Below, piece by piece: positions 12,211 to 44,531 of a stretch of 46,105 nucleotides of DNA. Origin of the DNA: Oscillospiraceae bacterium (GTDB lineage Bacteria; Bacillota; Clostridia; Oscillospirales; Oscillospiraceae). The translations under genes and the position numbers were made by a program. Location of the stretch: contig JAFVWL010000131.1 in the NCBI GenBank assembly GCA_017501695.1, positions 1 to 46,105 on the forward strand, in the 5' to 3' direction. Below the pieces are notes generated by a model. That model did no database searches, was not told the origin of the DNA, and was given only the letters and a program-made list of their open reading frames with translations. Numbering within the stretch: position 1 is the first letter of the stretch; every line of letters starts with the position of its first letter.

Positions 12211-12630
12211 TCATTCCTTGACGGTGTCAAAGAAAGAAGAGATCACAGCGACGATGGTAGCCACCAGGCAGCCGGCGATACCAACGATGCAGCTGACCAG
12301 GTCAGCCATATTCTTGGCGTTGTTCTCGAAGGTCATGACCGCAGCAATGGCGTTGACACGGGTGTTGACCAGCAGCAGAGTAGCAGCCATCAGCAGAGCG
12401 GCAGCGACGACAGGCAGGACATCAGCCCAGGTCTGGACACCCTTCATGTTGACAACGACATAGACGATCACAGCAGCAATGGCAGCAACGGTGCAGCCAA
12501 CGACAGCGGAATCAACGCCCAGGTTGGCAAAATAGTTGGTGCCGCAGTTGATCAGGTAGCCGACCAGGCCCACCAGGGCAGCGACCACGGTGACCACAGA
12601 AAGGATAAAACCGACAGATTGCTTTTTCAT
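12211..12630 (-). CDS. Four-helix membrane protein paired with GH3 (operon 1)
   Basis: Protein of 139 residues with four predicted membrane segments (about 7-27, 43-63, 72-90, 108-130) and few charged residues. I do not recognise a named family. It starts 19 nt after the GH3 stop, with GAGGT upstream, and is the last gene of the operon. A similar protein (130 residues, same helix count, the shared N-terminal ALVGL..Y....G.N pattern, the same end KE) follows the second permuted GH3 at 37952-38344. This recurrence suggests that the two proteins work together in the membrane, for example as a complex with the GH3 anchor helices; that is inference. Confidence 0.78.
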   Translation of the reverse strand: MKKQSVGFILSVVTVVAALVGLVGYLINCGTNYFANLGVDSAVVGCTVAAIAAVIVYVVVNMKGVQTWADVLPVVAAALLMAATLLLVNTRVNAIAAVMTFENNAKNMADLVSCIVGIAGCLVATIVAVISSFFDTVKE

Positions 12631-12649
12631 AGCTATTTTACCTCCTTGA

Positions 12650-15600
12650 TCAGTTTTCCTTGCGCTTCAGAGACTGGATGTACATATAGGCACAGCCCAG
12701 AGTCAGCACACCGAAGACGATCTGCATACCGGTGATGACATTGTCATACCAGGTGCGGACGCTGACCAGCGTGGAAGAAGCGGCCAGGCCGTCCATAGCG
12801 TTGGAGTTGGCCAGAGCGTAGTTCTGCCAGGTCATAGCCTGCTTCAGGGCAGCCATCAGCTTGGCGTCCTTGCTGACATTCTCGACAGTCCAGTAGGTCC
12901 ACTTGCCGGAAACAGCCTCCATGGAGTTCTCACCGGTGTTACAGGTCATGGTAACGCCGTTCAGAACAGCTTCCTTCAGCACGGTGTAGTTGGCACTCAT
13001 GATGAAGTCCTCGGAGATCAGGCCCTTGTAGCCCCACTCCTCGCGGAGGATGCCGACCATCAGACCGGTGTGAGCATTGGCGGTGATGATGCCGACGCGG
13101 TTGAAGGCGGTCATCAGGCCCAGGCAGCCATCCTCAACGATGGCCTGGCAGCCACGCAGCTCGTTCTCACGGGCCTGCTGCTCGGTCATGAACACGGAGA
13201 TACCGGTACGGTTGATCTCAGTGTCGTTGAAGGCATAGTGCTTGGGAGCGATGATGCAGCCGTATTCCTTACCGGCCTGGATGTAGGAAGTACCCTGCTC
13301 CACAGTCAGGACAGCGTCCTCGGAGTAGTACTCGTGGTTACGGGCATTGTAGGGCAGACGGTGGATGTTGTTGCCGCAGCCCCAGAAGATGGTCAGGTTG
13401 GCCCACAGGGAGTAGTTACCGATAACGCGGCCATACTCAGCAGCCAGCTCCTTGGAGAAGGTGGCGGCGATAACGGTCTCATTACACATGGTGCCGAACT
13501 TGTAGGACAGGTTGGGGTCGTCAGCGGTGGTGGTGCAGGGGTCACCGGAGTTCTTGTCGGTGTTGGCGTACTGGCCCAGGGTGTAGGAGTTGATGCCGTT
13601 GGGGCCATCGTTCTGGATGGTCAGGGGGGACATGATGGACTCGATGGCCTTGGAGCTGGTGCCGCCGAAGCCGGTACGGATCATGCACTCCTCCAGCAGG
13701 ATCTGATCCATCAGGACAGACCAGCGAGGATCGTCGAGGTCGGAAACACCCTTCAGGTCGGCCAGAGTCAGGCCGTTCTTGGCGCCGAAGGTAACGGAGC
13801 TGGGATCGCCGTTGGCCGTGATCTCGTAGATGTCGTTATCCAGGTAGGAGATCATGGTATCGGTGGCGGTCAGATCCTTGTAGGTCTTGGGCCAGGTGCC
13901 CTGCCAGTCGGAACGGGACAGCCAGGTCACAGTGCCGGGCATCCAGTAGTTCAGATCCATGTCAGCCAGCTGGTTCTCAACAGCCACGCCAGCCTTGGAG
14001 ACGGAGAAGGTGGTGGTGTCCATGTTGGCCAGCTTCCAGGTCTTGACGTTGTTGGCGTTGCCGTCCTCGGTCATGCCGTTGGCAACAGTCTTGCCCTGAG
14101 CGGCCAGGATGTTGTTGGCAGCCTCATGGGCGCCGTTGCCGATGGTGAAGTAGTAGTCACCGGCATCCAGCATCCAGACACCCTTGGTGCCGGCAGCGTT
14201 GTCGGCCTTGGAGTCCCAGGAAGCCATGTTCTGCATATCGGCCACGATGGTCACAGTGACGGACTCATTGGCAGCCAGTTCCTTGGTCTTGCCGTAGTCC
14301 AGCAGCTGGACGCCGGCCTTTTCGATGCCGTTGGCCTTGTCGTAATCGGTGTAAGGCAGGGAGACATACAGCTGCACCACAGCCTTGCCGGGCACGGAGC
14401 CGGTGTTCTTGACGGTGACCGTAGCGGTGACGGTCTTTGCATTCACATCGACATCAACCTTATCCAGGGTCTGGGTGAAGGTGGTGTAGCTCAGGCCGTA
14501 GCCGAAGGGGTAGGAAACTTCGTTGTTATAGCTCCAGGCCTTGCCATCGGTGCTGCCCACAGCGGAGGTAGCATTGCCCTGGCCCAGGACGGAGTCCATG
14601 TAGCGGGTCTCGTAGTACTTGTAGCCGATGTAGATGTTCTCGGCCTCCACCAGGGTGGAGTTCATGGACCAGTCGCGGTTGCCGTTGGTCCAGGCGAAGT
14701 TGCCATAGTTCTGAGCCGCGGGAGAGTTGGCGTTGACCACGGCATAGGTGTCGGCCAGGTGGCCGGAGGGGTTGGCAGCGCCGGACAGGATATCGGCAAC
14801 ACCGTAGAAGCCGTAGCCGCCGGGCAGACCGATCTCCAGGATGGCGTCGACGCCGTCATTGTTCTTGATCTCATCGATCTCCAGAGCGGAGGCGTTGTTC
14901 AGCAGGACGATAACCTTACCGCCGTTGGCTTCCTTGGCAGCCACAGCAGCGGCGATCAGGTCGCGCTCATCATCGGACAGGCCCAGGGGGTCAGTCTGAT
15001 TCAGGTTCTGCTCAGGATTGACACCGGCCACACCGGGGGTGTAGTCCTTGTTCTCACCAGCCGCGCGGGCGATGGTGATGATCATAACGTTGTCGTTCTT
15101 CAGCTCATTCTTCCAGTTGGCATTGGTCTCAGCCATCTGAGCCTGAGAGGGCTCCATGCTGGTGAAGACACCGCCGATGGAGGGAGCAGTGATGCGGGTG
15201 TAGGTGATGCTGCCGCCCCAGCTTGCGACCTCGGTCACAAAGTAGGGTTCCAGATCCTTATACATCTGCTGCAGATTGGCGTTGATCTTGAAGCCCTTGG
15301 CGTTCAGGGCCTGAACAAAGTCAACGGTGTCGGCGTCGGTGCCGACGTTCACAGCCAGGCTGGAGCCCATGTCACCACCCATGACAGGGTAGTAGCTGGA
15401 GAAGCCCAGCAGGGAGACCTTCTGGGTCTCTTCCTGAGTCAGAGGCAGAGCGCCGTTGTTCTTCAGCAGAACGGTGCCTTCCTCGCTCATCTTCTCACCC
15501 AGAGCTTCGATGGCGTCCAGCAGTTCCTTGGTGGAATTGTAATCGGAATGGTAGGTATACAGGTCATCGGCGGAAACGCTGTCGTCGGTCACGACAATGC

Positions 15601-15751
15601 TGCTCTGGGTGCCCAGGAACTTGTCGATGTCCGTACGGAAGCCATTCACCATTACCTGGCCCACCAGCGCAATTACCAGCAGGACTGCCATGACGGTGGT
15701 CAGACCGCGCCAGCGACGCTGTGCGGCACGACCGGATTTCTTAGTGTTCAT
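12650..15751 (-). CDS. Circularly permuted GH3 glycosidase, anchored at both ends (operon 1)
   Basis: Protein of 1033 residues. The usual GH3 order is reversed. The GH3 C-terminal alpha/beta sandwich comes first (GTVLLKNNGALPL, IGLPGGYG, ANPSGHLADTY), then the fibronectin III-like part after FPFGYGLSYTTF. The catalytic barrel domain comes last (GCGNNIHRLPYNARNHEYYSE in two parts, APKHYAFNDTEINR). The likely nucleophile is D915 in GLISEDF. A hydrophobic helix lies at about 15-35 after a basic N terminus, and another at about 1005-1025 before KRKEN. Positive-inside charges place both ends in the cytoplasm and the enzyme outside. The ATG at 15751 has AGGAGG upstream. Reversed GH3 order is known in rumen Clostridia. 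A beta-glycosidase is expected; the sugar is unknown. Confidence 0.9.
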   Translation of the reverse strand: MNTKKSGRAAQRRWRGLTTVMAVLLVIALVGQVMVNGFRTDIDKFLGTQSSIVVTDDSVSADDLYTYHSDYNSTKELLDAIEALGEKMSEEGTVLLKNNGALPLTQEETQKVSLLGFSSYYPVMGGDMGSSLAVNVGTDADTVDFVQALNAKGFKINANLQQMYKDLEPYFVTEVASWGGSITYTRITAPSIGGVFTSMEPSQAQMAETNANWKNELKNDNVMIITIARAAGENKDYTPGVAGVNPEQNLNQTDPLGLSDDERDLIAAAVAAKEANGGKVIVLLNNASALEIDEIKNNDGVDAILEIGLPGGYGFYGVADILSGAANPSGHLADTYAVVNANSPAAQNYGNFAWTNGNRDWSMNSTLVEAENIYIGYKYYETRYMDSVLGQGNATSAVGSTDGKAWSYNNEVSYPFGYGLSYTTFTQTLDKVDVDVNAKTVTATVTVKNTGSVPGKAVVQLYVSLPYTDYDKANGIEKAGVQLLDYGKTKELAANESVTVTIVADMQNMASWDSKADNAAGTKGVWMLDAGDYYFTIGNGAHEAANNILAAQGKTVANGMTEDGNANNVKTWKLANMDTTTFSVSKAGVAVENQLADMDLNYWMPGTVTWLSRSDWQGTWPKTYKDLTATDTMISYLDNDIYEITANGDPSSVTFGAKNGLTLADLKGVSDLDDPRWSVLMDQILLEECMIRTGFGGTSSKAIESIMSPLTIQNDGPNGINSYTLGQYANTDKNSGDPCTTTADDPNLSYKFGTMCNETVIAATFSKELAAEYGRVIGNYSLWANLTIFWGCGNNIHRLPYNARNHEYYSEDAVLTVEQGTSYIQAGKEYGCIIAPKHYAFNDTEINRTGISVFMTEQQARENELRGCQAIVEDGCLGLMTAFNRVGIITANAHTGLMVGILREEWGYKGLISEDFIMSANYTVLKEAVLNGVTMTCNTGENSMEAVSGKWTYWTVENVSKDAKLMAALKQAMTWQNYALANSNAMDGLAASSTLVSVRTWYDNVITGMQIVFGVLTLGCAYMYIQSLKRKEN

Positions 15752-15830
15752 GTTTAACCTCCTAATCTTTTCTTTTCGCTGTGATTTTAACAAAAGCGCC
15801 GGGGCGCAATGTTACGTACAAACCGGAAGC

Positions 15831-17273
15831 TTATTTCTTCCGGGCGGCGATGGCAGCCTGCTCCTCGGGCAGGTTCTTCTCCACAGTGAAGAAGAAAACC
15901 AGAACGGCACAGACAGCAAAGGCAATGGTCTCGATCCAGATATAGCTGACGGAAATAGTGGACTGGACCGCGGCGGACTGAACGGTGGCGGCGGCATCAT
16001 AGCCGGCAGCACCCAGCATCGCCATGAACAGGGAGTTGCAGATGGGAGTGGCGGCGACCATCAGAGAGGAGTAGATGGACATGGTCAGGCCGTCGGTACG
16101 GATGCCGGTGGTATACTCAATGTGATCGATAACGTCAGCCAGCATAGCCAGGATCACATAGCAGGCGGGAGAGTTGCCCAGGCACTTCAGGGCCACACCC
16201 ACGGAAACCAGGATGATATTGCCGTTGGCAAGGCCGGCGATAACACCGCCCACGACACCAACGATCATACCAACACAGACCACAATACGCTTGCCGAACT
16301 TGTTGGCCAGAGGCATAACGATGGCAGCGGCAGCGGCCATGGGGATGGCACCCATGATGCTGAGGATGGTCTGAGCGAAGCCCCAGTCGCCGCACACCAG
16401 GGAAGCATCCACGACCCACTGGCAGAAGTAGCTCATGGAACCGTTCTTCATGGCACCGGACCACTGGAAGCCCAGGTAGAACAGCATAACGAGCCACCAC
16501 CACTTCTCGCCGGTGACAGCCTTAAGCTGCTGACCCAGGGAGACGGTCTTCACTTCCTTCTTTTCGGAACCGGCATTGGTAACCATATCCTCTTCGGTAA
16601 CACGTTCCCGGGTGAACTTGTACTGCAGGAAGATGGTCAGTCCGGTGAAGATGGCCACGGCAACCATGACCAGCAGCCACATATTGGGATCTTCCTTCAT
16701 CACATTGGACACCAGGATGGGGAAGATCATGGAGCCGCAGCCCATAACCGCCAGGCCGGCGATGTTGGTGAAGGAGGCCAGGCTGCCGCGCTGCTGGCTG
16801 TTCCGGGTGGAAACCGGGATCATGGTAGAGTTGGCAGTGTTGTAGATGGGGTAAGCCACAGCGTAATACAGGTTGTACGCAATGGCGACCCAGATCATCT
16901 TTGCCACGCCCTCAAAGGGCACCACGAACATCAGCAGGCAGGAGACGGACAGGGTCAAAGCGGACAGCAGCAGCCAAGGACGGGCCTTGCCGGCGCTGGC
17001 CTTGGTGCGCTCGATGAGCTGGCCCACGATCAGGTTGGCAGCCACAATGAAGAAGGTGGACACCAACTGAAGGCCGGTCAGGAAACCGGTATCCAGCAGC
17101 AGAACGTCCGTAAAGTACTTGTTCAGGAAGCTGGTAAAAATACCGGAGGAAAGGAGCGCGCCGAAAGGTCCGATGAGATAACCGATCAGCATCTCGGGCA
17201 TCTTCACGTCATCGGTCTTGATGGCGGAGCTGGCCAGAGGGCTGTTCCAGAAATCTTTTTTCTGATTGCTCAT
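15831..17273 (-). CDS. GPH-type sugar:cation symporter (MFS)
   Basis: Membrane protein of 480 residues with about twelve helices in the glycoside-pentoside-hexuronide (MelB-like) family. Visible marks: MLIGYLIGPFGALLSSGIF near the start, the QLIERTKASAGKARPW loop typical of this family (an R.K...GK.RPW pattern between helices 2 and 3), and the YPIYNTANSTMIPVSTRNSQ stretch. It would import a glycoside with Na+ or H+. It sits between the cytoplasmic GH78 rhamnosidase and the surface GH3. A rhamnose-containing saccharide trimmed outside by GH3 and finished inside by GH78 is therefore a reasonable guess for the substrate. Confidence 0.9.
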   Translation of the reverse strand: MSNQKKDFWNSPLASSAIKTDDVKMPEMLIGYLIGPFGALLSSGIFTSFLNKYFTDVLLLDTGFLTGLQLVSTFFIVAANLIVGQLIERTKASAGKARPWLLLSALTLSVSCLLMFVVPFEGVAKMIWVAIAYNLYYAVAYPIYNTANSTMIPVSTRNSQQRGSLASFTNIAGLAVMGCGSMIFPILVSNVMKEDPNMWLLVMVAVAIFTGLTIFLQYKFTRERVTEEDMVTNAGSEKKEVKTVSLGQQLKAVTGEKWWWLVMLFYLGFQWSGAMKNGSMSYFCQWVVDASLVCGDWGFAQTILSIMGAIPMAAAAAIVMPLANKFGKRIVVCVGMIVGVVGGVIAGLANGNIILVSVGVALKCLGNSPACYVILAMLADVIDHIEYTTGIRTDGLTMSIYSSLMVAATPICNSLFMAMLGAAGYDAAATVQSAAVQSTISVSYIWIETIAFAVCAVLVFFFTVEKNLPEEQAAIAARKK

Positions 17274-17332: not shown

Positions 17333-19885
17333 TCAAAGATCGCAGCCAAAACTGTATTCGCCGCTGCCCAGGGACTTCTCTTCCCCGTTGGGCATAGTCA
17401 GACGGCAGGAGGTTCCCACAGGGACCTGAACCTGAATAGAGAATTTGCCGTTTTCAGCAGTCCAGTGGACACCGGCCTTACCGTAGGGGGTCAGCACATG
17501 GGTCTTGGCCCAGGTCAGGCCGCCGCCCAGCACCGGTTTCACGGAGAAGGTCTTGTAACCGGGCTCCACCGCCTCAATGCCCGCCACCCGGCGGTACAGG
17601 AAGTCACCCACCGCGCCGCTGGCGTAATGGTTATAGGAGATCATGATGTCGGTGCCATCGTCGCCGATGGGGCACTCGCCGTTTTCATCCAGACCGTCCC
17701 AGCGCTCCCAAATGGTGGTGGCGCCCATTTTCACCTGATACAGCCAAGAGGGACACTTGGTATTCAGCAGCATCTTGTAGGCCGTATCCACATGACCGTT
17801 GTCCGCCAGGGCGAACAGGATGAAGGGCGTTCCGGGGAAGCCCGTGCCGATGCAGTGATCGCTGCGTTCCACCAGGGACACAAGGTTCTTTGCGGCCTTG
17901 GCCTTGACCTCCGCATTGGGGAACATATCCAGATGCAGAGGCAGCACATAGGCGGTCTGGAATTCCTCCAGCAGTTTGCCGTTGCCGTCGGTGAACACGG
18001 AGCAATAGGCATCCGCCACCTTCTCGCTCAGGTCCTTATAGTAGGCAACATCTTCCGTTTCACCCAGGATTTCCGCAATCTGAGAAACAAGGGCGGAGGT
18101 GTTTTTCAGGCTGGCGGTGCCGGTCCACTTGCCCCGGGCCTGCCACTGGCTCATCTGAGGCACATCCGGCGCCACCCAGTCGCCGAAGCACAGCACACCG
18201 GGAACATCCCAGATGTAACGGTTCTTACCAAAGCTCAGGAGTCCTGCCCAGAAACAGCAGGCCTTGACGTACTTCTTCATGCCGGGGTAATATTTGCGCA
18301 GGATCTCCACATCGCCCCGGGCCCGGTATTCATTCCAGGGCACAAGCACACAGGCATCGTCCCACCAGGCCACGGCCATAACAGGCATGGTCGCAGGGAA
18401 GCCAAAGCCGTTCAGGGGGATGGTGTTGGGAACGCCGCCGGAAGGAAGCTGCTCCGCCGCCAGATCCAGCATCCACTTGTTCAGGAACCGGCTGGTATCG
18501 AAATTGTAACAGGCCACAGGAGAGAACACGGCGATGTCGCCGGTCCAGCCCATACGCTCGTCACGCTGGGGGCAGTCCGTGGGGATGTCCACAAAGTTGG
18601 ACTTGGAACTCCAGATGATATTGCTCTGAAGCTGATTCAGCAGTTCATTGGAACAGGCGAAATCACCGGTGCGCTCCATGTCGGAATAAAGCGCCAGGGC
18701 GGAAATTTGGATGTTTTCTTTCGCCACGCCCTCTACGCTGACATAACGGAAGCCCATATAGGTCAGCTTGGGAGAATAGGTCTGAGTACCGTCCACGCAG
18801 GTGTAGGTAGCGGCTGCCTTTGCGGTACGCAGGAACTTCACATTCAGGCTTCCGTCAGGATTCAGCAGCTCCGCGTGTTTTACCGTAATGACCTGGCCCT
18901 GCTTGCCGTTGACCGTGAATTCCACCACACCGGCAAAGTTCTGGCCAAAATCGTAGATCAGCTTGCCGTCATGCTCCACGCAGGAGATGGGTTCCAGGCG
19001 CTCATGGGCCACCACAGGGGCACCGTAATCCGCCATGATCGCAGGATCCACCCGAAGCTTCTCCTCCGCGGCGGCGCGCCAGCGGATGCTGTCAGCCGTG
19101 ACAGTGGCATCATAAGTCTCGCCATCGTAGATATCCGCCATCTTGTAAGGACCGTCCTCGGTGACGGACCAGCTTTCATCGGTACCGATCACTTCCTCGG
19201 TTCCGTCTTCGTAACGAATGCGGATCTCCATCAGCAGTGCCTGGCGGTCCGCCATGACCCGGTTCTTCCGGGTAAACACGAAGCTGCCCACAGCCCAGCC
19301 GCCGGCGACCACCGTCTCGATAACTGCCTCGTTTTGGAGCTGCTCGGTCACATCATAGGTCTGGTACTGCAGATTGGTCTTGTAGGAAGTAAAGCCGGGG
19401 GCAAAATACTGATTGCCCACCTTGCGGCCGTTGATATTCAGCTCATAGATACCCATGGCCGTGGCATAAATCCGGGCACTCGCTACCTTCTTTCCGGGCT
19501 TGACGGTCTTGCGGAAGGTCATGGGGACAGGAGAAACACCCTTCTCAGTGAAGCGGTACTCCGGATCGGTGATCCATTTTGCCTCCCAGGGATGCTCCAT
19601 CCGGCCCATTTCAAAGGACAGCTCCGCCTGGGCCGTCTCACCGGCGTCATCCGTAGCAGTTACCTTGACAGTGTACCGGGTAAAGGGCTCCAAGCCGGGA
19701 CCGTCGTAGCGGATGGCCACCTGGGTATCCGTTTCCGTCTTCCAATCACCGACCTGGATCACCGCCCGCTTCAGGGAAACGTTTTTCCGGTCGCTTTCCA
19801 GATAGAAGGAGAAACGGGGATGGGCCACATCCGTAACACACCCATGGGCAAGGTTTTCCACGGTGAATCGTTTGATTGCCAACAT
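17333..19885 (-). CDS. Alpha-L-rhamnosidase, GH78 family
   Basis: Protein of 850 residues without signal peptide or membrane segment, so cytoplasmic. It removes terminal alpha-L-rhamnose. Domain order follows the family: N-terminal beta domains (about 1-95), a carbohydrate-binding-like domain (about 100-290, with YELNINGRKVG), a concanavalin-like domain with IYDFGQNFAGVVEF (310-323), then the (alpha/alpha)6 catalytic domain with DCPQRDERMGWTGD (437-450; acidic residues D437, E443 and D450) and a C-terminal beta domain. The ATG has AAAGGAG upstream. It is the first gene of the operon, 59 nt before the transporter gene. Confidence 0.94.
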   Translation of the reverse strand: MLAIKRFTVENLAHGCVTDVAHPRFSFYLESDRKNVSLKRAVIQVGDWKTETDTQVAIRYDGPGLEPFTRYTVKVTATDDAGETAQAELSFEMGRMEHPWEAKWITDPEYRFTEKGVSPVPMTFRKTVKPGKKVASARIYATAMGIYELNINGRKVGNQYFAPGFTSYKTNLQYQTYDVTEQLQNEAVIETVVAGGWAVGSFVFTRKNRVMADRQALLMEIRIRYEDGTEEVIGTDESWSVTEDGPYKMADIYDGETYDATVTADSIRWRAAAEEKLRVDPAIMADYGAPVVAHERLEPISCVEHDGKLIYDFGQNFAGVVEFTVNGKQGQVITVKHAELLNPDGSLNVKFLRTAKAAATYTCVDGTQTYSPKLTYMGFRYVSVEGVAKENIQISALALYSDMERTGDFACSNELLNQLQSNIIWSSKSNFVDIPTDCPQRDERMGWTGDIAVFSPVACYNFDTSRFLNKWMLDLAAEQLPSGGVPNTIPLNGFGFPATMPVMAVAWWDDACVLVPWNEYRARGDVEILRKYYPGMKKYVKACCFWAGLLSFGKNRYIWDVPGVLCFGDWVAPDVPQMSQWQARGKWTGTASLKNTSALVSQIAEILGETEDVAYYKDLSEKVADAYCSVFTDGNGKLLEEFQTAYVLPLHLDMFPNAEVKAKAAKNLVSLVERSDHCIGTGFPGTPFILFALADNGHVDTAYKMLLNTKCPSWLYQVKMGATTIWERWDGLDENGECPIGDDGTDIMISYNHYASGAVGDFLYRRVAGIEAVEPGYKTFSVKPVLGGGLTWAKTHVLTPYGKAGVHWTAENGKFSIQVQVPVGTSCRLTMPNGEEKSLGSGEYSFGCDL

Positions 19886-19944
19886 TGGTTTTCCACTCCT
19901 TTCAATGAACCTGTCATGTTTTGCGAACTCATTCTCTTGATGAT

Positions 19945-20011
19945 ACTATATCATAAAAAATTCATTTTTGTATAGTTTTTCACAAACTGTCAATAATTTA
20001 GCACAATCCGT
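19945..20011 (-). promoter_or_regulatory. Activator-type promoter of glycan operon 1 with LytTR-like direct repeats
   Basis: On the minus strand a -10 TATAGT (19945-19950) has no good -35 at 17 nt. Upstream are two 9-bp direct repeats, ACGGATTGT (20003-20011) and ACAGTTTGT (19982-19990), with a 12-bp spacer. The proximal repeat is 31 nt from the -10 box. ACAGTTTGT fits every defined position of the known AgrA/LytTR consensus (W-M-M-GTT-N-R-K). The same geometry recurs upstream of operon 2. The binding protein is probably the LytTR regulator encoded at 21401-22111, by inference. Confidence 0.6.
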
Positions 20012-20040
20012 TTCTCTGTTTGTAAGATTCCACAAAGGAA

Positions 20041-20077
20041 AAACCCGGAACTTGAGCATTTCGCCAGTTCCGGGTTT
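20041..20077 (-). terminator. Terminator of regulator-kinase operon 1
   Basis: Perfect 12-bp stem (20041-20052 with 20066-20077), 13-nt loop, then TTTTT-CC on the minus strand. It follows the kinase stop codon. Confidence 0.85.
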
Positions 20078-20087
20078 GTTGATTCCA

Positions 20088-33044: not shown

Positions 33045-33067
33045 AGGTTGACTCCTTTCATAAATAA

Positions 33068-34543: not shown

Positions 34544-34773
34544 TCCCCCACCTCCGAATTCAGCAGTAAGAACACCAGCAGCACCGTGGCGCATTCCCAC
34601 AGCCCCGCACCCATGACCAGGGCGTATACCGTGGCGCAAACCGCCGTCGCTGTGGAAGCCAGCGTCAGCACACCCCCGGTCGCCCGGTAAATCCGGTCAA
34701 AGATGCAAAGGAACACAGCAAGGCCGTACAAAAGCAGCGCCACGGGCAATTCCAGGATCACAAGTTCTTCCAC
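34540..34773 (-). CDS. Small membrane protein of MBOAT locus B
   Basis: Protein of 77 residues with about three hydrophobic segments (LPVALLLYGLAVFLCIF, LTLASTATAVCATVYALVM, ATVLLVFLL). The GTG at 34773 has GAGGTG 8 nt upstream; another GTG at 34761 overlaps the ligase stop and is an alternative start. It overlaps both the ligase gene and the MBOAT gene, so the three are tightly coupled. Its twin in locus A (11859-12089) has the same size and place. No family is recognised. Confidence 0.78.
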   Translation of the reverse strand: MEELVILELPVALLLYGLAVFLCIFDRIYRATGGVLTLASTATAVCATVYALVMGAGLWECATVLLVFLLLNSEVGE

Positions 34774-36245: not shown

Positions 36246-36558
36246 AACGTGTCCCTCCTGACCATGCAGGTCAACCTTATTATAATGCAGCTTGCCGCAA
36301 GGCGCAAGCATTGGAGCAAACCAAAAACTCCCGATGCGCGTAATGCCCCGGAAGAACCGGGGCATTACAGCGGGAAAGAAAAAGAGGAGAAGAGAATATC
36401 GTATCATATACCCCAGATAGAGGGTTTGTATGGTAACATCCGAAGCGAATCCGGATGGAATGCTCGTATTCATTGTTTGCTGATCATCCCCGGTCCGGAA
36501 AAATCCGGGCCGGGGATTTTCAGGAGGTATGCGTCCCAAGGTTGGGACACCATGTACG
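36246..36558. other. Intergenic region of 313 nt with two hairpins
   Basis: No credible gene. It holds the locus B promoter (36279-36307), a perfect 12-bp hairpin GTAATGCCCCGG (36340-36351 with 36357-36368) without a U tract, and a 13-bp terminator-like hairpin (36486-36498 with 36505-36517). The second follows the esterase gene on the minus strand and probably ends glycan operon 2, although its U tract lies on the plus side. Confidence 0.6.
36279..36307 (-). promoter_or_regulatory. Promoter of acylation locus B
   Basis: Minus strand -35 TTGCGC (36302-36307), 17-nt spacer, -10 TATAAT (36279-36284), 34 nt before the ligase start. Confidence 0.68.
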
Positions 36559-37951: not shown

Positions 37952-38344
37952 TTACTCCTTGGTCAGGGGCTTCACGCTGGCGACATAGCCCGCCACGATG
38001 GCCAGAACCAGGCACACCACAAAGGCGATCCAGGCCACATCAAAGAAGCCGCCGTCGATAGAAACCAGAACGTTGGAAGCGAAGAGCATCTCAGTGTTCA
38101 GCAGGACGCCCAGAGTCACAACGTACAGCAGGTAGGGAATGAACTGACCGATCTTGAAGTCCTTAACCAGGACCACGGCGTTCAGCACGATGCCGACAGC
38201 CCAAACGGCGACAGCAGTGCCGGAGACGGGAGAATAGCTGTTACCGCCTCTGACCACGTAAACGATCAGGCCAACCAGGGCCAGAACCATGGAAACGCAG
38301 GAAATATACCAGAAAGTGGTTTTCTTGTTGAGGAATTCGTTCAT
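37952..38344 (-). CDS. Four-helix membrane protein paired with GH3 (operon 2)
   Basis: Protein of 130 residues with four membrane segments (about 11-30, 41-60, 67-86, 102-122). No named family is recognised. It starts 1 nt after the GH3 stop, so translation is coupled. Its twin is at 12211-12630, also directly after a permuted GH3; both share the N-terminal pattern ALVGL..Y....G.N and similar size. The strict pairing suggests a joint complex with the GH3 anchor helices. This is inference. Confidence 0.78.
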   Translation of the reverse strand: MNEFLNKKTTFWYISCVSMVLALVGLIVYVVRGGNSYSPVSGTAVAVWAVGIVLNAVVLVKDFKIGQFIPYLLYVVTLGVLLNTEMLFASNVLVSIDGGFFDVAWIAFVVCLVLAIVAGYVASVKPLTKE

Positions 38345-38345: not shown

Positions 38346-41300
38346 TTACTTCTCCTCCTTCTTGGTGCCGAAGGTGTGCACGACAGTCATCAGGCCGCAA
38401 ACAGCGGTCAGCAGGCCGGAGACGATCATGCAGGCCATCAGCGCGTTGTTGTACCAGGTGTTTACCGCCACGATCTCCACAGTGGAGGACATACCGTTCA
38501 TGGCAGCGGAATTGGTGAAGTTGTACAGGATCCGGTGAGTGGCCTCACGGAGGTTGGTCAGCAGCTTCAGGTCATGAGCAGCCTTCTCAGCGATGATGGG
38601 GGTAAAGCTCTGGCCGGAGGTACAGAACATCGTGTTGCCTGCCTCGTAAGCCAACTGGGGCTCCATCAGGGACTGAGGCTTCTGGCCGAAGTCGGTGGTG
38701 ACGTTGCCGGTGAAGCCCCATTCGCCAGCCATGACATTGTGCCACAGATTGCCGTAGTGGCCGCTCCAGGTGACACCCAGACGGTTGAAAGCGCCCATAA
38801 CACCGGTGACAGCGGGATCTTCCTCAGTGCCGTCGGTGGAGAAGGGAGCCTGGTAGGCCTTCAGGTAAATCTCACGCAGAGACTGCTCGTTGGCGAAGGT
38901 GCAGACACCGATACGGTTGGTTTCCTGATCGTTCAGGAAGAAGTGCTTCAGGTAGGGAATAACGCCCTTGGCCATAGCGCCCTGAGCCTCAGCCTCAGCC
39001 AGCTCGCCGGAGATGAAGCCGTCCTCAGAGTAGTACTCGAAGTTACGGCCGGAGTAAGGAGTACGGTGCAGGTTCGCGGCAGGACCGTACCAGCCGACAC
39101 CGCCGCCCCACAGACCTTCCTCACCGAAGGAGTTACCGACCTCACGGGCCAGAACCACATTCCAGGTGGAGGCGATGACGGTCTCAGTGGGATACAGGAC
39201 CATGTTTTCCGTGGTCTTCTCAGCGTCAGCGGAGAAGTCGTCGTACTTGACCTTGTAGGTGGACTTAGTCCAGGCAGCAGGACCGTCAACCGCGGTAGTC
39301 TCAGGCTGGCCCACGGAGGGGATAGCAGGTCTGCCCTGACGGGCGAAGTTGGCCATTTCCTCGATGGTCAGCATATCCAGCAGGGTTTCCCAGGCCTCAT
39401 CATCGTAATCCTTACCCATCATGGTGGCAATGTTCACACCGCTGTGCTGGGCACCCAGGGTGATGGAGGAGATGTCGGAGGAGCCGGGAGTATAGGCAGC
39501 AGGGTTGTTGTTCTCATCGTAGAGATCGTTCATTTCCTTGACCATCTGGCTGGTGGCAGCGAAATCCACCATTTCCTTGGGCCAGGTGCCGTCCCAGTCG
39601 GAACGGGTCAGGTAGGTAACCAGATCGCCGTAGTGGTTCAGGTCGACGGTATCGAACTGGTTGGTCACGGTAAAGCCGGTAATGGACTCGGAGTACAGGG
39701 TGTCACCGTTCTTGGTCCACTTGTAGGCGTTGGCGGCGTTACCGTTGGCATCCATGCCGTCAACGGTGGTCTTGCCCTTGGCAGCCAGGATGTTGTTCAG
39801 GGCTTCATGGGCGCCGTTGCCGATGGCGAAGTAGTAATCGCCGCCCTCCAGAACGTAGGTTCTGGCAGTCTTGTAGTCGTAGGAAGCCACGTCGTTGAGG
39901 TCGACCACCACTTCGTAGGTCTTCTCAGCATTGGCAGCCAGCTCGTCGGTCTTCACAAAACCCACCAGGACCACGGAAGCCTTCTCGATGCCGCCGGCGG
40001 TGTAGGGGCTCTGGGCGTAGATTTCAATGACATCCTTGCCCGCCACGCTGCCGGTATTCTTCACAGAAACGGTGACGGTAGCGGTCTTGGCGTTCTCGTC
40101 CACAACCACGTTCTCCAGCTTCTGGGTAAAGGTGGTGTAGCTCAGGCCGAAGCCGAAGGGGAACTGAACCTCTTCGGTGTAGTTCCAGGCACCCTCGGAA
40201 GCGAAGGCACCCTTGGTGGAGGAAGCGTTGCCCTGCTTCAGGACGGTATCCTCATAACGGGTCTCGTAGTAGCGGTAGCCAACGTAGATGCCTTCGGCAT
40301 AGACCAGGTACTTCTGGGAGTCAGAGTTGTTGATCTGGTCAGCGTTGGAGTAGGTGTAGCCGCCGAAGTTCTGCATGGCGGGAGAGGAATAGGAGTCGTA
40401 AGCATAGGTATCGGCCAGCTTGCCGGAGGGGTTGACGTTGCCGACCAGGATGTCCACGACAGAATCCATGCCGACTTCGCCGGGGCCGCCGATGTACAGC
40501 ACGGCATCGATGTCATACTCATCCAGCCAGCCCAGCTCCACAGCGTTGAAGGCGTTGATCAGAACGATCCGCTTGGAGAAGGGACCGTCCTTCATGGCCT
40601 GCAGCACCTCGCGCTCGGTCTCGGACAGGTCCAGATAACGGTCCTCGTCGGAGTTGGCGCTCTTGGTGGTCAGGTCAGCACCCTCGCCGCCGATACGGGA
40701 CAGGACGAAGATAGCCGCGTCCGCGTAGTTGGCATAGCTGCCGGTGACTTCCGCGGGGAATTCAGAGGGAGAGATTTCGGGGATCTTGTAATTGTTGCCA
40801 TAGGTGGGGGTGGTATCGGGGGTTTCTTCGCCGCCACCGCCGCCGGAGCCGGAGCCGCCGCCCTTCTTACGGGTCAGAGCGCCGTCCTTGGCCTGATTGC
40901 CGGCTTCAATCTGAGACAGATAGTAGTCATACAGGGCATCGTTCAGGGCCAGACGGCCATCCTCGGCAAAGGACTTCCGCAGATCGTACTTTCTTTCAGC
41001 AGAGGCAGTCACACCGCCGGAGCCGGTGCCGCCGTAGGCCAGGTCAGCGGAGGAATAACTGAACACAGTCACCTTCGCGCCCTTGCTCAGGGGCAGCGCG
41101 TTGTTCTCGTTGCGCAGGAGGATGGTGCCATCAGCCTGCACCTGGCGGCTGACGTTCCGGGCATTCTCCATCACGTCCTTGTAGTTGGAGAAGGCGCTCT
41201 TGAAGTAGACAGTGTCCACATTTCCGTCACCCTTCTCGACGATCTTGGTGCCCTCGACGCCGAGGTACTTGTTGATGTATCCGGACCATTCTCTCGTCAC

Positions 41301-41393
41301 CACGTCGCCGGCGATGGAGATGATCAGGATAAACGCAAACAAGCCCGCGAGGACACGCCATAGCGTTTTGTTTCCGATCTTCGCCAAATTCAT
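38346..41393 (-). CDS. Circularly permuted GH3 glycosidase, anchored at both ends (operon 2)
   Basis: Protein of 1015 residues. Helix 1 at about 14-33, glycine-rich linker GGGSGSGGGGG (178-188) inside the first GH3 domain, then IGGPGEVG and NPSGKLADTY, and the fibronectin III-like part after FPFGFGLSYTTF. The catalytic barrel domain comes last, with GPAANLHRTPYSGRNFEYYS, KHFFLNDQETNR and the likely nucleophile D901 in NVTTDFGQ. Helix 2 lies at about 983-1005, before GTKKEEK. Charges place both termini inside and the enzyme outside. It shares with the GH3 at 12650-15751 the order, both anchors and the AM[DN]G...WY[DN]N stretch before helix 2. ATG at 41393 has GAGG upstream; TTG at 41402 is an alternative. 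Confidence 0.9.
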   Translation of the reverse strand: MNLAKIGNKTLWRVLAGLFAFILIISIAGDVVTREWSGYINKYLGVEGTKIVEKGDGNVDTVYFKSAFSNYKDVMENARNVSRQVQADGTILLRNENNALPLSKGAKVTVFSYSSADLAYGGTGSGGVTASAERKYDLRKSFAEDGRLALNDALYDYYLSQIEAGNQAKDGALTRKKGGGSGSGGGGGEETPDTTPTYGNNYKIPEISPSEFPAEVTGSYANYADAAIFVLSRIGGEGADLTTKSANSDEDRYLDLSETEREVLQAMKDGPFSKRIVLINAFNAVELGWLDEYDIDAVLYIGGPGEVGMDSVVDILVGNVNPSGKLADTYAYDSYSSPAMQNFGGYTYSNADQINNSDSQKYLVYAEGIYVGYRYYETRYEDTVLKQGNASSTKGAFASEGAWNYTEEVQFPFGFGLSYTTFTQKLENVVVDENAKTATVTVSVKNTGSVAGKDVIEIYAQSPYTAGGIEKASVVLVGFVKTDELAANAEKTYEVVVDLNDVASYDYKTARTYVLEGGDYYFAIGNGAHEALNNILAAKGKTTVDGMDANGNAANAYKWTKNGDTLYSESITGFTVTNQFDTVDLNHYGDLVTYLTRSDWDGTWPKEMVDFAATSQMVKEMNDLYDENNNPAAYTPGSSDISSITLGAQHSGVNIATMMGKDYDDEAWETLLDMLTIEEMANFARQGRPAIPSVGQPETTAVDGPAAWTKSTYKVKYDDFSADAEKTTENMVLYPTETVIASTWNVVLAREVGNSFGEEGLWGGGVGWYGPAANLHRTPYSGRNFEYYSEDGFISGELAEAEAQGAMAKGVIPYLKHFFLNDQETNRIGVCTFANEQSLREIYLKAYQAPFSTDGTEEDPAVTGVMGAFNRLGVTWSGHYGNLWHNVMAGEWGFTGNVTTDFGQKPQSLMEPQLAYEAGNTMFCTSGQSFTPIIAEKAAHDLKLLTNLREATHRILYNFTNSAAMNGMSSTVEIVAVNTWYNNALMACMIVSGLLTAVCGLMTVVHTFGTKKEEK

Positions 41394-41452
41394 ATAGCTC
41401 AACCTCTTTCTTTTTGGGCTCTCGCCCTTTTATTTCTAAAGCCTTGCGGCTA

Positions 41453-42301
41453 TTAGACCTGGGGAAGTGTACGGCTCAGGATCTCTTCAAAATAAGGGGT
41501 CCACCATTCCAAATACCCTGCCTTGAGGGGATGGATCGGGTCACGCATATAAAGTTTATACTGGGAATCCGTAATGTTGTTAAAGTCCGCATCGTTATAC
41601 AGATCGATGATGTGAACCTCATAGCCTTCGATGGCGTTCCATTTCTCCACCAGCTCATGGGTAAGCTGAACCAGCCGGGCATAGTCCGTGCCGGAAGGAT
41701 CCCGGTTTCCCGTCAGGCCGTCATCTCCAAAGTAGGCTCCGGAGTAGAAGTATACCGGACAACCCCAGGTCTCCCAGACGTAGGCAATGATGTACTCCAT
41801 GGCACCCAGAGTAGTTTTCACATCAAAGGAAGCCTTATCGGTAACATCGGCGCCGGTAATCCGGCCCCACTGGGAAAGGTTTTCCGATTTGGCATCATTG
41901 GTGGAAATCTGGCACACGAAAGCATCCACCTTTGCCTGCTTGTCAAAATTCTCGCTGTTGTTCAGCCGGGTAACATAGGAGTCTTCCGACGAAAACCAGG
42001 ATTGGTAGGGCTTATCGATCAAAGTCGTGCCGGAAACCGCTTCCTTGACGCACACCGCGCCGTTTCTGGCAGCGATGTAATCCGCCACCGCCTGCTCTCC
42101 GCTTTCCATACCAAGGGTCACAGAAGAACCCAGCCAGTAGATCGTCTTTCCGGTAAGAGCCGTATGACTGGCAGTAATATTCTGAGCATCGTAAATGGCA
42201 CCGTTTCCGGGCACGAAGGCATAGAAGCCCACCGCACCGGCAGCAACGGCCGCGGCGAGAAGCACCGCGATGATTATGAACCTGATCTGTTTTTTGTTCA
42301 T
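41453..42301 (-). CDS. Membrane-anchored SGNH/GDSL hydrolase (operon 2)
   Basis: Protein of 282 residues. N-terminal helix (about 8-29) as anchor or signal. SGNH blocks: GSSVT with S60, the glycine in AVSGTTL, ISTND, and D254/H257 in DPIHPLKAGY, which is the complete catalytic set. It is probably an extracellular esterase acting on acylated sugars. It is first in the operon, 59 nt before the GH3 gene, so the operon combines one deacylase, one glycosidase and one CE1-like esterase. It is unrelated in motif detail to the SGNH-LRR proteins. GGAGAGG precedes the start. Confidence 0.9.
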   Translation of the reverse strand: MNKKQIRFIIIAVLLAAAVAAGAVGFYAFVPGNGAIYDAQNITASHTALTGKTIYWLGSSVTLGMESGEQAVADYIAARNGAVCVKEAVSGTTLIDKPYQSWFSSEDSYVTRLNNSENFDKQAKVDAFVCQISTNDAKSENLSQWGRITGADVTDKASFDVKTTLGAMEYIIAYVWETWGCPVYFYSGAYFGDDGLTGNRDPSGTDYARLVQLTHELVEKWNAIEGYEVHIIDLYNDADFNNITDSQYKLYMRDPIHPLKAGYLEWWTPYFEEILSRTLPQV

Positions 42302-42323
42302 AATGCCCTCTCCTTTGTTCTTG

Positions 42324-42398
42324 TAATGTACATTATACAGTGATTTTCACCAAACGCACGATTTTGGCAATATCTGCATCCATATCGCCACAATTCGC
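42324..42398 (-). promoter_or_regulatory. Activator-type promoter of glycan operon 2 with direct repeats
   Basis: Minus strand -10 TATAAT (42332-42337), no good -35 at 17 nt. Direct repeats GCGAATTGT (42390-42398) and GCAGATATT (42369-42377) are separated by 12 bp; the proximal one is 31 nt from the -10, exactly as in operon 1. Twelve of the 18 repeat positions are the same in the two promoters. A perfect palindrome TAATGTACATTA (42324-42335) overlaps the -10 box and may be a further operator. Confidence 0.55.
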
Positions 42399-42409
42399 TT
42401 TTTTACAGC

Positions 42410-42439
42410 ACAGTTGGTCGTTTTTCTGGCACGGTTGGC
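42410..42439 (+). promoter_or_regulatory. Second 9-12-9 direct repeat pair, opposite orientation
   Basis: On the plus strand ACAGTTGGT (42410-42418) and ACGGTTGGC (42431-42439) are separated by 12 bp. The first fits the AgrA/LytTR consensus at all defined positions. The flanks are also alike (GCACAGTTGG and GCACGGTTGG). It lies upstream of the pair at 42369-42398 and just before the kinase terminator. Confidence 0.55.
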
Positions 42440-42464
42440 AAGCCATATCATCAGGACGCACAAG

Positions 42465-42500
42465 AAAAGCGAAGAAACCCAACCGGATTTCTTCGCTTTT
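42465..42500 (-). terminator. Terminator of regulator-kinase operon 2
   Basis: Perfect 13-bp stem AAAAGCGAAGAAA (42465-42477) with 42488-42500, 10-nt loop, ending in UUUU on the minus strand, directly after the kinase stop. Confidence 0.8.
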
Positions 42501-42506
42501 CATAAT

Positions 42507-43814
42507 TCAGTTTTCAGAATCCAGGGGGATCAGAATACTCAGGCAGAAGGTATTCTCTGTGATGTTGAAATTGATGTTCCCGCCGTATTTCTGGACAATA
42601 TATCGAATGCTTCGCAATCCGAAGCCATGGCTTTCCTTGTCGGCCTTTGTGGTAACCGGAAGACCGTCCTTGAACGTGAGCTTCTCTTCACAGTAGTTTT
42701 CCATATGAATGTTTACAAAACCGCCCCGGGAAAAGACACGCAGACTGATGATCCGCTTGCTTTCGTCGGTAATTTTGACCACGTTTTCGATGGCGTTATC
42801 CAGAGCATTGCCAAAGAGCGCGTAGATATCCATGTAGCGCATCCTCTGCAGTCCGGCACCGTCCGCCATATAGGTAAAACGGATCCCCTTCTGATTGCAG
42901 AACAGGCCCTTTTCCGTCAGGACGCAGTCCAGAGCATCGTTGCCGGTTTTGGCGTAATTGTCATAGATCATCACCGCGTTTTGCAGTTCCTCGATCTCCG
43001 CCCTGCGTTCGGCGGAATCATCCATGGATTTCAGCGCCGCGATCTGGTGTTTCAGATCATGGCACTTGATGTTGATGATCTCCATGTTGGCCTGGGCCAT
43101 CTCGTAGTACCTTCCCTCCTGGGCAAGCCGGCGTTCCAGCTCGTTGGCATCGCTCTGGAGTTTATTGGTTCGGAACAGGCCAATCAGCAGACAGATCAGG
43201 AATACATCCAGAATCACGGAATAGATTTCGTAGACGATGGCAATGCCGGAATTCTTCAGCAGCTCCCCTTGCATATGGCGGATGTAGATGCCCAGAACAA
43301 TGAGGACCAAGGAAAAGGATGCCGCCAACGCCAGAACCGGGAGGCTGGAAATGGACACATCCGCCTCGAACCGCCGGTCCCGCAGATACAAGAAATAAAA
43401 CGCAGAATAGACCGTCAGATAAAAGACAGAGTAAGTCAGAAAGGATGTGAACCGCTGGGCTTCCAGATCCATGCCCGCAAGAAGAATGACGCCATTCATA
43501 AACAGGCGGCAGAGATGATGGGCAAAGTTCTGGAGCACAAAAGAAAAGACACAGAAATACAGGGCGTTGAACGCGGACATATTGAACATCGTCAAGGATG
43601 CCGCGACCACCGCCAAATAGGGGATCAGGTAAAACAGGTAATAGCTCCAAGGCAGAGGAAGGGCCAGCAGGCTGTCCTGCATAAAATAGAACGAAACGGA
43701 CAGCAGACACAGCGACACCGGGGCCGCAAGCTGAAAAAGCCTGGTCTTGGGAAACCGGTAAAAGAATAAGGCAAAGGGCAGCAAAAGCTGGATAAAAAAC
43801 ATGACCATATCCAT
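42507..43814 (-). CDS. GHKL sensor histidine kinase, AgrC-like (system 2)
   Basis: Protein of 435 residues with about six membrane helices in the first 215 residues, a coiled coil (about 216-245), and a GHKL kinase domain. The phospho-acceptor is H252 in KCHDLKHQIAA, the N box is LFGNALDNAIEN, and the glycine box is GFGLRSI. It resembles the kinase at 20088-21404 in size and layout but differs in its sensor part, so a different signal is likely. It starts 6 nt after the LytTR regulator. No peptide precursor or processing gene was seen. Confidence 0.92.
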   Translation of the reverse strand: MDMVMFFIQLLLPFALFFYRFPKTRLFQLAAPVSLCLLSVSFYFMQDSLLALPLPWSYYLFYLIPYLAVVAASLTMFNMSAFNALYFCVFSFVLQNFAHHLCRLFMNGVILLAGMDLEAQRFTSFLTYSVFYLTVYSAFYFLYLRDRRFEADVSISSLPVLALAASFSLVLIVLGIYIRHMQGELLKNSGIAIVYEIYSVILDVFLICLLIGLFRTNKLQSDANELERRLAQEGRYYEMAQANMEIINIKCHDLKHQIAALKSMDDSAERRAEIEELQNAVMIYDNYAKTGNDALDCVLTEKGLFCNQKGIRFTYMADGAGLQRMRYMDIYALFGNALDNAIENVVKITDESKRIISLRVFSRGGFVNIHMENYCEEKLTFKDGLPVTTKADKESHGFGLRSIRYIVQKYGGNINFNITENTFCLSILIPLDSEN

Positions 43815-43820
43815 AAGACA

Positions 43821-44531
43821 CTACTCCCCTACCTTGGAATAGAATACAGACAACGCATCCAGGAAGCTCTTTTTATAATTCCGGCTGATGCTCAGGGTAT
43901 CCTTCCCTACCGTAACCGAAAAGCCTGCCACATGATTTACATGAGCCAGATTCACCAGATACGATATACCGCACCGGGCAAAACCACGGCCGCTGAGCCG
44001 GGCTTCCGTATCGTTCATACTGGCACGGACCCGGTAGGTCCCAGCCTCCGTATGATAGACAACAAAATGCTTATCGCTTTCAATATAGCGGATCCGGGAC
44101 ACCTCGATTTTCGTAACTCCATCTGCCGTTTCCAAAAGCACAAAGCTTCCGGCATATTTCCTGCGGAGCCGGATGGCTTTATCCATCTTCAGGGAGAAGT
44201 TAAAATACTCTACCGGCTTCAGCATGAAATCCAGAGCGTCCACCTCGTAGCCCTTCAGGGCGTATTTTGCCATATTGGTGACAAAGATCAGGGACACGGT
44301 CTGATCCACAGCCCGGAGCCGGCGGGCCGTGGCCATGCCGTCCAGCCGGGGCATTTCGATATCCATAAACACAATATCGCAATCTCCGGTGTAATCCGCG
44401 ATAAACTGCAGGCCGTCCGTGTAATGGCTCAGCCGATAGGCTTCCCCGGATTCCTCGAAATACTTTTTCACATACCGCTCCAAGAGCTTGGCGCTGGAAA
44501 TGTCGTCTTCCACAATGGAGATATGAAGCAT
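43821..44531 (-). CDS. LytTR response regulator (system 2)
   Basis: Protein of 236 residues. Receiver domain with IVEDD at the start, phospho-acceptor D57 in IVFMDIEMPRLDG and the lysine in FMLKP. The LytTR DNA-binding domain follows (IRYIESDKHFVVYH, GRGFARCGISYLVNL, LSISRNYKKSFLDAL). ATG at 44531 chosen for GGGAGGCGG upstream. Likely targets are the direct repeat pairs at 42369-42439 in front of the SGNH-GH3 operon. Its own promoter is clear and constitutive-looking. Confidence 0.94.
   Translation of the reverse strand: MLHISIVEDDISSAKLLERYVKKYFEESGEAYRLSHYTDGLQFIADYTGDCDIVFMDIEMPRLDGMATARRLRAVDQTVSLIFVTNMAKYALKGYEVDALDFMLKPVEYFNFSLKMDKAIRLRRKYAGSFVLLETADGVTKIEVSRIRYIESDKHFVVYHTEAGTYRVRASMNDTEARLSGRGFARCGISYLVNLAHVNHVAGFSVTVGKDTLSISRNYKKSFLDALSVFYSKVGE

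Follow-up and report, generated by a model that had tools for sequence, protein, structure and literature searches.

Recurrent gene modules combining LytTR/GHKL two-component systems with permuted GH3 glycosidases in an Oscillospiraceae genome

Introduction

A contig of 46,105 nucleotides from an Oscillospiraceae bacterium (JAFVWL010000131.1 in assembly GCA_017501695.1), referred to here as the window, carries two loci in which a LytTR response regulator and a GHKL histidine kinase are followed by an operon encoding a glycoside hydrolase family 3 (GH3) enzyme of permuted domain order, with one hydrophobic segment at each end, and a small membrane protein with four predicted helices. Judged from sequence, each locus is probably a self-contained and inducible unit for processing glycosides at the cell surface, equipped with accessory enzymes that can be swapped between copies, and this is the inference best supported by the analysis. 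Loci of this kind recur in the same genome and in other bacteria, the adjacency of two-component and permuted GH3 genes is non-random, and many modules contain direct repeats with a period of 21 bp. Carbohydrate sensing and ordering are less clear in gut Clostridia than in Bacteroidetes, and in the present genome all six LytTR regulators detected stand beside one kind of enzyme.

Organization of the two modules

Both modules are encoded on the minus strand and are therefore described from high to low coordinates. In module A (22111 down to 12211), the order is LytTR regulator, GHKL kinase, terminator, a gap of 202 nucleotides (nt), GH78 enzyme, GPH transporter, permuted GH3 and four-helix protein; in module B (44531 down to 37952), it is LytTR regulator, GHKL kinase, terminator, a gap of 205 nt, SGNH hydrolase, permuted GH3 and four-helix protein, with a CE1-like esterase next. 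These genes, their order, common strand, gap lengths and terminators had been proposed in a preliminary description of this DNA, together with the single hydrophobic segment at each end of both GH3 enzymes and the four-helix gene 19 nt (A) and 1 nt (B) behind them, and the reading of open reading frames (ORFs), Pfam matches and Kyte-Doolittle hydropathy agree with it throughout. The same applies to the accessory genes, namely GH78 and GPH in module A and the SGNH hydrolase (with a Pfam match under the curated cut-off) and CE1-like esterase in module B. The features of the two modules are as follows.

Module A
21401..22111, minus strand: LytTR response regulator, 236 amino acids (aa) (Pfam Response_reg 5.7e-18, LytTR 2.9e-14)
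20088..21404, minus strand: GHKL histidine kinase, 438 aa, four hydrophobic segments by Kyte-Doolittle (HATPase_c_5 2.3e-25; H-box HDLKHQ read directly)
19886..20087, minus strand: gap of 202 nt with a terminator hairpin and then a weak direct repeat
17333..19885, minus strand: GH78-type alpha-L-rhamnosidase (Pfam Bac_rhamnosid6H 3.8e-102; zero hydrophobic segments called)
15831..17273, minus strand: GPH/MFS_2 sugar transporter (Pfam MFS_2 1.3e-63)
12650..15793, minus strand: permuted GH3 (Pfam GH3_C 107-436, Fn3-like 472-553, GH3_N 771-934; segments 31-49 and 1019-1037)
12211..12630, minus strand: four-helix protein, 139 aa, four segments, 19 nt downstream of GH3

Module B
43821..44531, minus strand: LytTR response regulator, 236 aa (Pfam LytTR 4.2e-17; a longer ORF reaches 44546)
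42507..43814, minus strand: GHKL histidine kinase, 435 aa, five hydrophobic segments (Pfam HATPase_c_5 2.4e-29)
42302..42506, minus strand: gap of 205 nt with a terminator hairpin and then repeats
41453..42301, minus strand: SGNH hydrolase with an N-terminal hydrophobic segment (Pfam Lipase_GDSL_2 3.5e-6, under the curated cut-off)
38346..41402 (ATG start at 41393), minus strand: permuted GH3 (Pfam; segments 17-35 and 990-1008)
37952..38344, minus strand: four-helix protein, 130 aa, four segments, 1 nt downstream of GH3, of the same family as the module A copy
36559..37782 (start uncertain, ORF to 37881), minus strand: CE1-like esterase with N-terminal membrane segments (Pfam Esterase 3e-7)

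Comparison of the two copies by BLASTP gives identities of 40% over 236 aa for the regulators, 36% for the GH3 enzymes, 36% over the C-terminal 242 aa for the kinases, and 36% over 56 aa (E 4e-5) for the four-helix proteins. Because identities amount to 36-40%, modules A and B appear to be old paralogues, and a recent (tandem) duplication is ruled out.

Adjacency and distribution

The assembly comprises 2.3 Mb in 154 contigs and is 87% complete, the window being contig C126. Among the permuted GH3 genes of this assembly, 13 show both domains and 12 of these carry a segment at either end. Six LytTR genes were also detected, each of which is paired with a GHKL kinase and located 1.0-6.3 kb from a permuted GH3 gene. 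The genome consequently holds at least six modules, four of them outside the window, with a co-directional arrangement on C126 (twice) and C69 and a divergent one on C18, C140 and C91. Within the family, counts of permuted GH3 genes reach 18 in a genome of ~3.0 Mb (G089) and 14 in one of ~2.7 Mb (G134).

A broader survey covered 15 genomes, the present one included, which are those among 150 genomes of the same family that match a two-sequence GH3 profile at E ≤1e-80 and were accordingly chosen for GH3. The matches entered were 85 of 85 for LytTR, 74 of 138 for GHKL (at least 48 bits), 134 of 139 for PF00933 and 117 of 122 for PF01915, weak or secondary fragments being left out. Permutation was called from the order of the two outer domains, giving 83 permuted genes, 26 canonical genes and 25 with the barrel domain alone, a class that includes genes whose second domain is unmatched in the same frame. 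Within this sample, 44 of the 66 LytTR-GHKL pairs have a permuted GH3 gene no more than 10 kb away, and one of 19 unpaired LytTR genes does; the zones so defined account for 3.8% of bases. Viewed from the enzyme, a LytTR or strong GHKL gene occurs within 10 kb of 49/83 permuted GH3 genes versus 10/51 other GH3 genes, or 4/39 when those other genes are restricted to ones that are themselves away from permuted genes. The proportion is 47/73 for long permuted GH3 genes (frames of at least 955 aa) and 2/10 for shorter ones.

Modules of this kind also occur elsewhere in the Clostridia and among Actinomycetota, for example in Bifidobacterium, and hence in two phyla. The named loci, which comprise the top 80 of at least 588 obtained with a query of 13 sequences, mostly from kinase-bearing loci, include Lachnospiraceae, Butyrivibrio, Bifidobacterium, Thermophilibacter, Demequina, Cellulosimicrobium and others. 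Counts over distinct GH3 ORFs, the genes directly behind them and the 87 modules rest on ORFs defined by homology first, codon-based gene calls failing on AT-rich loci. A regulator or kinase is present within 8 kb of 34 of the 39 distinct GH3 ORFs that have at least 8 kb on both sides, the exceptions being one GH3 each in L074, L086, L101, L108 and L114. In a phylum sample of 398 genomes, the GH3 profile at E 1e-120 matches at least four genomes, the present one included (two candidates scored per genome), and the four-helix profile at E 1e-10 matches one, the present genome; since so few genomes match either profile, the unit appears to be patchy in distribution.

Direct repeats between the two-component genes and the operon

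Terminator hairpins are present in both gaps, with energies of -24.2 (A) and -25.9 kcal/mol (B) and z-scores of -4.1 and -8.0, and both beat all 200 shuffles. In module B, the elements CCAACCGTGC (42438-42429) and CCAACTGTGC (42417-42408) stand 21 bp apart, and a third related element (42397-42386) lies 20 bp from the second with 8/12 positions matching. In module A, GATTGTGCTAAA (20008-19997) and GTTTGTGAAAAA (19987-19976) are likewise 21 bp apart and match at 9/12 positions, which is within chance when taken alone; the second stops one base short of a -35-like hexamer at 19974. Five of the six modules of the genome, namely A (weak), B, C18, C140 and C69, have direct repeats spaced by 20-21 bp in the stretch that separates the two-component genes from the GH3 operon.

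The period stands out across the larger set of 87 modules, which lie near GH3 by construction, loci L040-L070 and L151-L170 having been chosen around GH3 hits. On the operon side, 12-mers with at least nine matches at a distance of 21 bp occur in 42 of 76 modules, compared with 2-14 of 76 at other spacings between 14 and 40, and on the non-operon side the same score is reached at 21 bp in 17 of 75 versus 3-16 at other spacings. After thinning to kinases of less than 55% identity, the 21-bp repeats persist in 38 of 66 modules, with 1-13 at other spacings. Under the stricter condition of 10-mers with at most one mismatch, the repeats are found in 18/86 regions downstream of the kinase and 11/85 upstream of the regulator, while a block-shuffled control (200 shuffles) averages 0.9 and never exceeds 4. 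These 10-mer repeats are placed on the operon side in 14 cases and on the other side in 4 among 62 co-directional modules, and in 7 and 3 cases, respectively, among 14 divergent ones.

The consensus of LytTR sites consists of direct repeats about two helical turns apart. The repeat sequences vary among modules of one genome. Many repeats have GTT-containing cores, and the period together with these cores fits LytTR sites, clearly in module B and weakly in module A. As predicted sites, the repeats of the module set show the feature that characterizes a LytTR regulon, a target promoter with direct repeats spaced by about two helical turns. The suggestion that the LytTR/GHKL system drives the GH3 operon is backed to this extent, as a prediction, by the 21-bp repeats across modules.

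The permuted GH3 enzyme

In both window copies, Pfam places GH3_C, FnIII and GH3_N in this order in one chain, and the nucleophile Asp and acid/base Glu are kept. The barrel nucleophile Asp is found in 40/40 GH3 rows and the acid/base Glu in 36 of the 38 rows covering that site, being missing in L047:7698-10856 and L067. Both residues align with PDB entry 2x40, which is taken to be T. neapolitana Bgl3B, and entry 2x42 has Ala at that Asp; entries 5k6l and 5wug are presumably GlyA1 and the P. barengoltzii enzyme. The DGP motif is variable (ENGP, DDN, ENAGN), and this variation suggests that the GH3 copies differ in substrate.

Among 132 distinct GH3 ORFs from the window and loci L040-L150, a simple hydropathy window calls segments at both ends in 116, at the N-terminus only in 8, at the C-terminus only in 5 and at neither end in 3. 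An aromatic pair, W[WYF], occurs just ahead of the C-terminal segment in 65/120 GH3 enzymes versus 4/120 random stretches, and a [ND]xxL[GNS] motif lies behind the N-terminal segment in 70/124, a count made without a control. A link between a cleavable-looking N-terminus (A-x-A) and absence of the four-helix gene was considered and discarded, as the feature occurs in 5/38 enzymes with the four-helix gene and 13/75 without it.

The four-helix protein family

A protein of 85-200 aa with three or four segments is encoded directly behind 40 of 120 GH3 genes with room downstream, and BLASTP puts 40 of 41 such proteins in a single cluster, with a shared four-helix pattern that includes, by eye, an ADV-like motif between helices 3 and 4. 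Although a gap of -40 to +250 nt was allowed, all 41 genes fall at -40 to +20 behind GH3 (untrimmed starts). A profile search of the 15 genomes returned 30 matches (E ≤0.001), 28 of which lie within 404 bp of a permuted GH3 gene, two of these upstream. The two remaining matches, of which one is partial and one has E 3e-4, come from contigs that show no GH3 match. At E 1e-8, the family is detected in 10 of the 150 family genomes, and all 10 are among the 15 GH3-bearing ones. Together with the 44 of 66 two-component pairs described above, the 28 of 30 four-helix matches place both kinds of gene beside permuted GH3 genes more often than chance, which is the point on which the preliminary description had staked its proposal.

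Because the family is nearly exclusive to permuted GH3 surroundings, yet stands behind only 40 of 120 GH3 genes, the four-helix protein is most plausibly a dedicated but optional GH3 partner. The same count rules it out as an obligatory core component. The earlier picture of a conserved core with swapped accessory enzymes is borne out by the surveys insofar as the constant core consists of the two-component pair and GH3, but not as regards the four-helix protein. No four-helix gene was detected beside 20 of 34 GH3 genes with two-component neighbours, and one is present at 2 of 5 GH3 genes without such neighbours. The proteins of 543 aa encoded at L151:6991-8622 and L152:6870-8501 combine the four-helix part with a fifth helix and an outer, Big_3-containing region, and a lipoprotein-like gene stands behind the four-helix gene at some other loci. 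Additionally, L063 (contig shared with L093) contains four double-anchored permuted GH3 genes and two four-helix genes on 16 kb, with no two-component genes in view.

For the two window copies, Pfam and NCBIfam give no match above cut-off, Pfam DUF5693 being reached at E 0.007, below cut-off, and the best PDB sequence match for the family is weak (Motility protein A, E 0.0013). Neither a four-helix partner nor the 21-bp repeats are described in the titles and abstract openings of the papers listed, which include few subscription journals and provide weak evidence of absence; both seem to be new. In combination, they allow such loci to be listed by computer.

Neighbouring and accessory genes

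Behind both modules, the same strand carries a block, absent from the preliminary description, of a small membrane protein, an MBOAT acyltransferase and SGNH/LRR (leucine-rich repeat) proteins, which in module B comes after the esterase and an AMP-dependent ligase. The blocks span window positions 9060-12089 and 29803-36311, and their genes are listed below.

11859..12089, minus strand: membrane protein of 76 aa before MBOAT, after module A (no Pfam family)
10477..11862, minus strand: MBOAT acyltransferase after module A (Pfam MBOAT 5.3e-33)
9060..10472, minus strand: SGNH-like membrane-anchored protein with an LRR stretch (SGNH by eye; LRR_5 slightly below cut-off)
34758..36311, minus strand: AMP-dependent ligase in the block of module B (Pfam AMP-binding 9.3e-57)
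34540..34773, minus strand: membrane protein of 77 aa before MBOAT, after module B (no Pfam family)
33068..34543, minus strand: MBOAT acyltransferase after module B (Pfam MBOAT 6.6e-27)
31254..33044, minus strand: LRR/SGNH-like surface protein (Pfam LRR_5 1.6e-12; SGNH by eye)
29803..31257, minus strand: SGNH-like protein (by eye; no Pfam family)

The small membrane protein before MBOAT measures 76-83 aa in six loci. In L052, from another genus of the same family, the order of module A is kept through the MBOAT block, with a GH2 gene and an extra SGNH/LRR gene added. MBOAT homologues are present in L051, L052, L065, L069, L122, L133 and L149; as a core component, the block was rejected, an MBOAT gene lying within 8 kb of just 4 of 52 GH3 genes with 6-kb flanks. 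The block of module B, which also has an AMP-ligase, resembles Dlt-like acylation logic.

Other features of the surroundings include a BspA-type leucine-rich repeat protein with a C-terminal dockerin domain at window positions 24086-26581, ~2 kb from module A, and two neighbouring tRNA-Leu(CAG) genes at 45412-45617, 30 nt apart and with equal model scores. Beside a permuted GH3 gene elsewhere, L045:10972-14136 encodes a protein of 1054 aa with, by eye, about seven near-identical repeats of ~95 aa and scattered Pfam matches that do not cover the full stretch.

Proposed mechanism and alternative explanations

Under the interpretation of each locus as an inducible surface unit, a GHKL kinase with several membrane helices would detect a signal linked to the target glycoside and phosphorylate the LytTR regulator, which would bind the direct repeats of 21-bp period (two helical turns) between the two-component genes and the adjoining operon and, once bound, switch the GH3 operon on. 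The product would be an exo-acting permuted GH3 glycosidase with its catalytic part outside the cell, anchored in the membrane through a helix at either end, which in about a third of cases may be joined by the four-helix membrane protein as partner or anchor platform. Accessory enzymes (GH78, GH2, esterases, lipoproteins) and, in some copies, a GPH transporter would fit the copies to different substrates. If this is correct, each kinase could be matched with its inducing glycoside.

Several observations weigh against this interpretation. Divergence of kinase and regulator is correlated overall (Mantel r 0.66), but not among the six modules of the genome (-0.21), and that of GH3 and kinase gives an r of 0.33, or 0.11 at GH3 distances above 0.4, with values of -0.11 and 0.00 within two of four genomes. 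Because the correlation between GH3 and kinase is just moderate, the parts of the modules appear to have been re-assorted, and strict co-evolution of the two is unsupported. Moreover, 34 of 83 permuted GH3 genes have no LytTR or strong GHKL gene within 10 kb, some owing to short contigs, and 22 of 66 LytTR-GHKL pairs have no permuted GH3 gene within that distance, which speaks against a strict rule. No direct repeat was seen in the C91 module in the scan of the genome, and that of module A is weak. The GPH transporter of module A has no counterpart seen in module B, GPH homologues lie within 8 kb of only 9 of the 52 GH3 genes with 6-kb flanks, and the MBOAT and AMP-ligase neighbours point to glycan acylation in some copies.

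A different role for the enzyme itself is unlikely, though it merits consideration: the double-anchored GH3 and the four-helix protein may form the sensor input of the kinase, engagement of a substrate outside the cell moving the paired helices and being relayed through the four-helix protein to a kinase without an evident large outer domain. Such a hydrolase-coupled two-component switch would exist in up to a dozen or more re-tooled copies per genome and, if true, would represent a Gram-positive counterpart in logic to SusC/D-type loci. In line with this proposal, 80 of 87 kinases have 4-7 hydrophobic segments within the first 260 residues, from which hydropathy suggests that a large outer domain is absent (the H-box pattern is present in 72 of 87). 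The placement of the four-helix family directly behind GH3, its fusion to an outer region with a Big_3 domain, the aromatic pair before the C-terminal helix and the preference of two-component genes for long GH3 enzymes point in the same direction. However, more than half of the GH3 genes with two-component neighbours lack a detected four-helix gene, some without such neighbours have one, and the co-divergence of GH3 and kinase is weak and disappears within two of four genomes.

It is rather improbable that the modules instead remodel the envelope, acting in concert with the MBOAT/SGNH/AMP-ligase acylation genes on a surface glycan or glycolipid of the cell itself under envelope stress. Control of the envelope and of virulence is a known role of LytTR systems, and MBOAT blocks follow both window modules and have homologues in seven further loci; however, MBOAT is rare near GH3 genes generally, companions such as GH78, GH2, GH16 and GPH fit plant glycosides, and up to 18 permuted GH3 genes per genome fit the diversity of the diet better than a single self glycan. 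Quorum sensing of the Agr type, in which a secreted peptide would be the signal of the kinase and GH3 expression would track cell density, is very unlikely. The GHKL kinase and LytTR regulator share their architecture with AgrC/AgrA, systems that use direct-repeat targets; the likeness to AgrC raised in the preliminary description is generic, since the Staphylococcus AgrC model, which has a cut-off of 500 bits, scores one of the kinases at 28 bits. In contrast to Agr systems, the neighbouring operon encodes glycosidases and AgrB (PF04647) is found in none of the 15 permuted-GH3 genomes, a search in which 14 control genomes gave one match below cut-off, so that a strong positive control is lacking, and in which AgrD-like peptides were not included; on this evidence the Agr alternative is disfavoured. 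That the genes are functionally unlinked neighbours, brought together by chance or local duplication, is scarcely credible: both modules do share one 46-kb contig, but the adjacency counts, the recurrence in two phyla and the 21-bp repeats speak against it.

Comparison with known systems

A polysaccharide utilization locus (PUL) of Gram-positive bacteria is defined by a degradative enzyme, a regulator and a transporter in one locus, and this set is complete in module A through its GPH transporter, with no transporter seen in module B. Gram-positive PULs described in a survey of Firmicutes (PMC5320581) cluster glycosidases, transporter and regulator; among them, locus Ros-7 has a LytTR regulator, a kinase and a GPH transporter, but its enzymes are GH25, GH43 and GH51, with no GH3, and the accessible text of that survey contains no double-anchored enzyme.

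With regard to the enzyme, the permuted GH3 subfamily was defined in 2016 with GlyA1 (PMC5104943) and gained the member BrGH3A in 2024 (PMC11233000). It is described as having the order alpha/beta-sandwich, FnIII and barrel, an Asp nucleophile and a Glu acid/base, and as frequent in Firmicutes (PMC5104943), and the present GH3 enzymes have the same domain order, nucleophile and acid/base. The text of PMC5104943 contains no occurrence of "transmembrane", "two-component" or "genomic context", and that of PMC11233000 none of "transmembrane". A lead towards glucosylceramide was dropped, as no paper in the literature covered brings all its elements together.

The preliminary description was aware of no published pairing of AgrC-type sensors with GH3, and the accessible text of PMC6344614 contains nothing on a LytTR/GHKL-GH3 pairing; the association of LytTR with GH3 is, however, already in print (Kelly et al. 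2010, PMC2914790). That report devotes to it one sentence on one genome, in a section silent on domain permutation, an N-terminal anchor, a four-helix protein and DNA repeats. In Butyrivibrio proteoclasticus B316, three LytTR regulators, in PUL7, PUL21 and PUL33, are each located near a secreted GH3 enzyme with a C-terminal transmembrane helix, and Kelly et al. infer for these three loci a common function and the sensing of carbohydrate linkages (PMC2914790).

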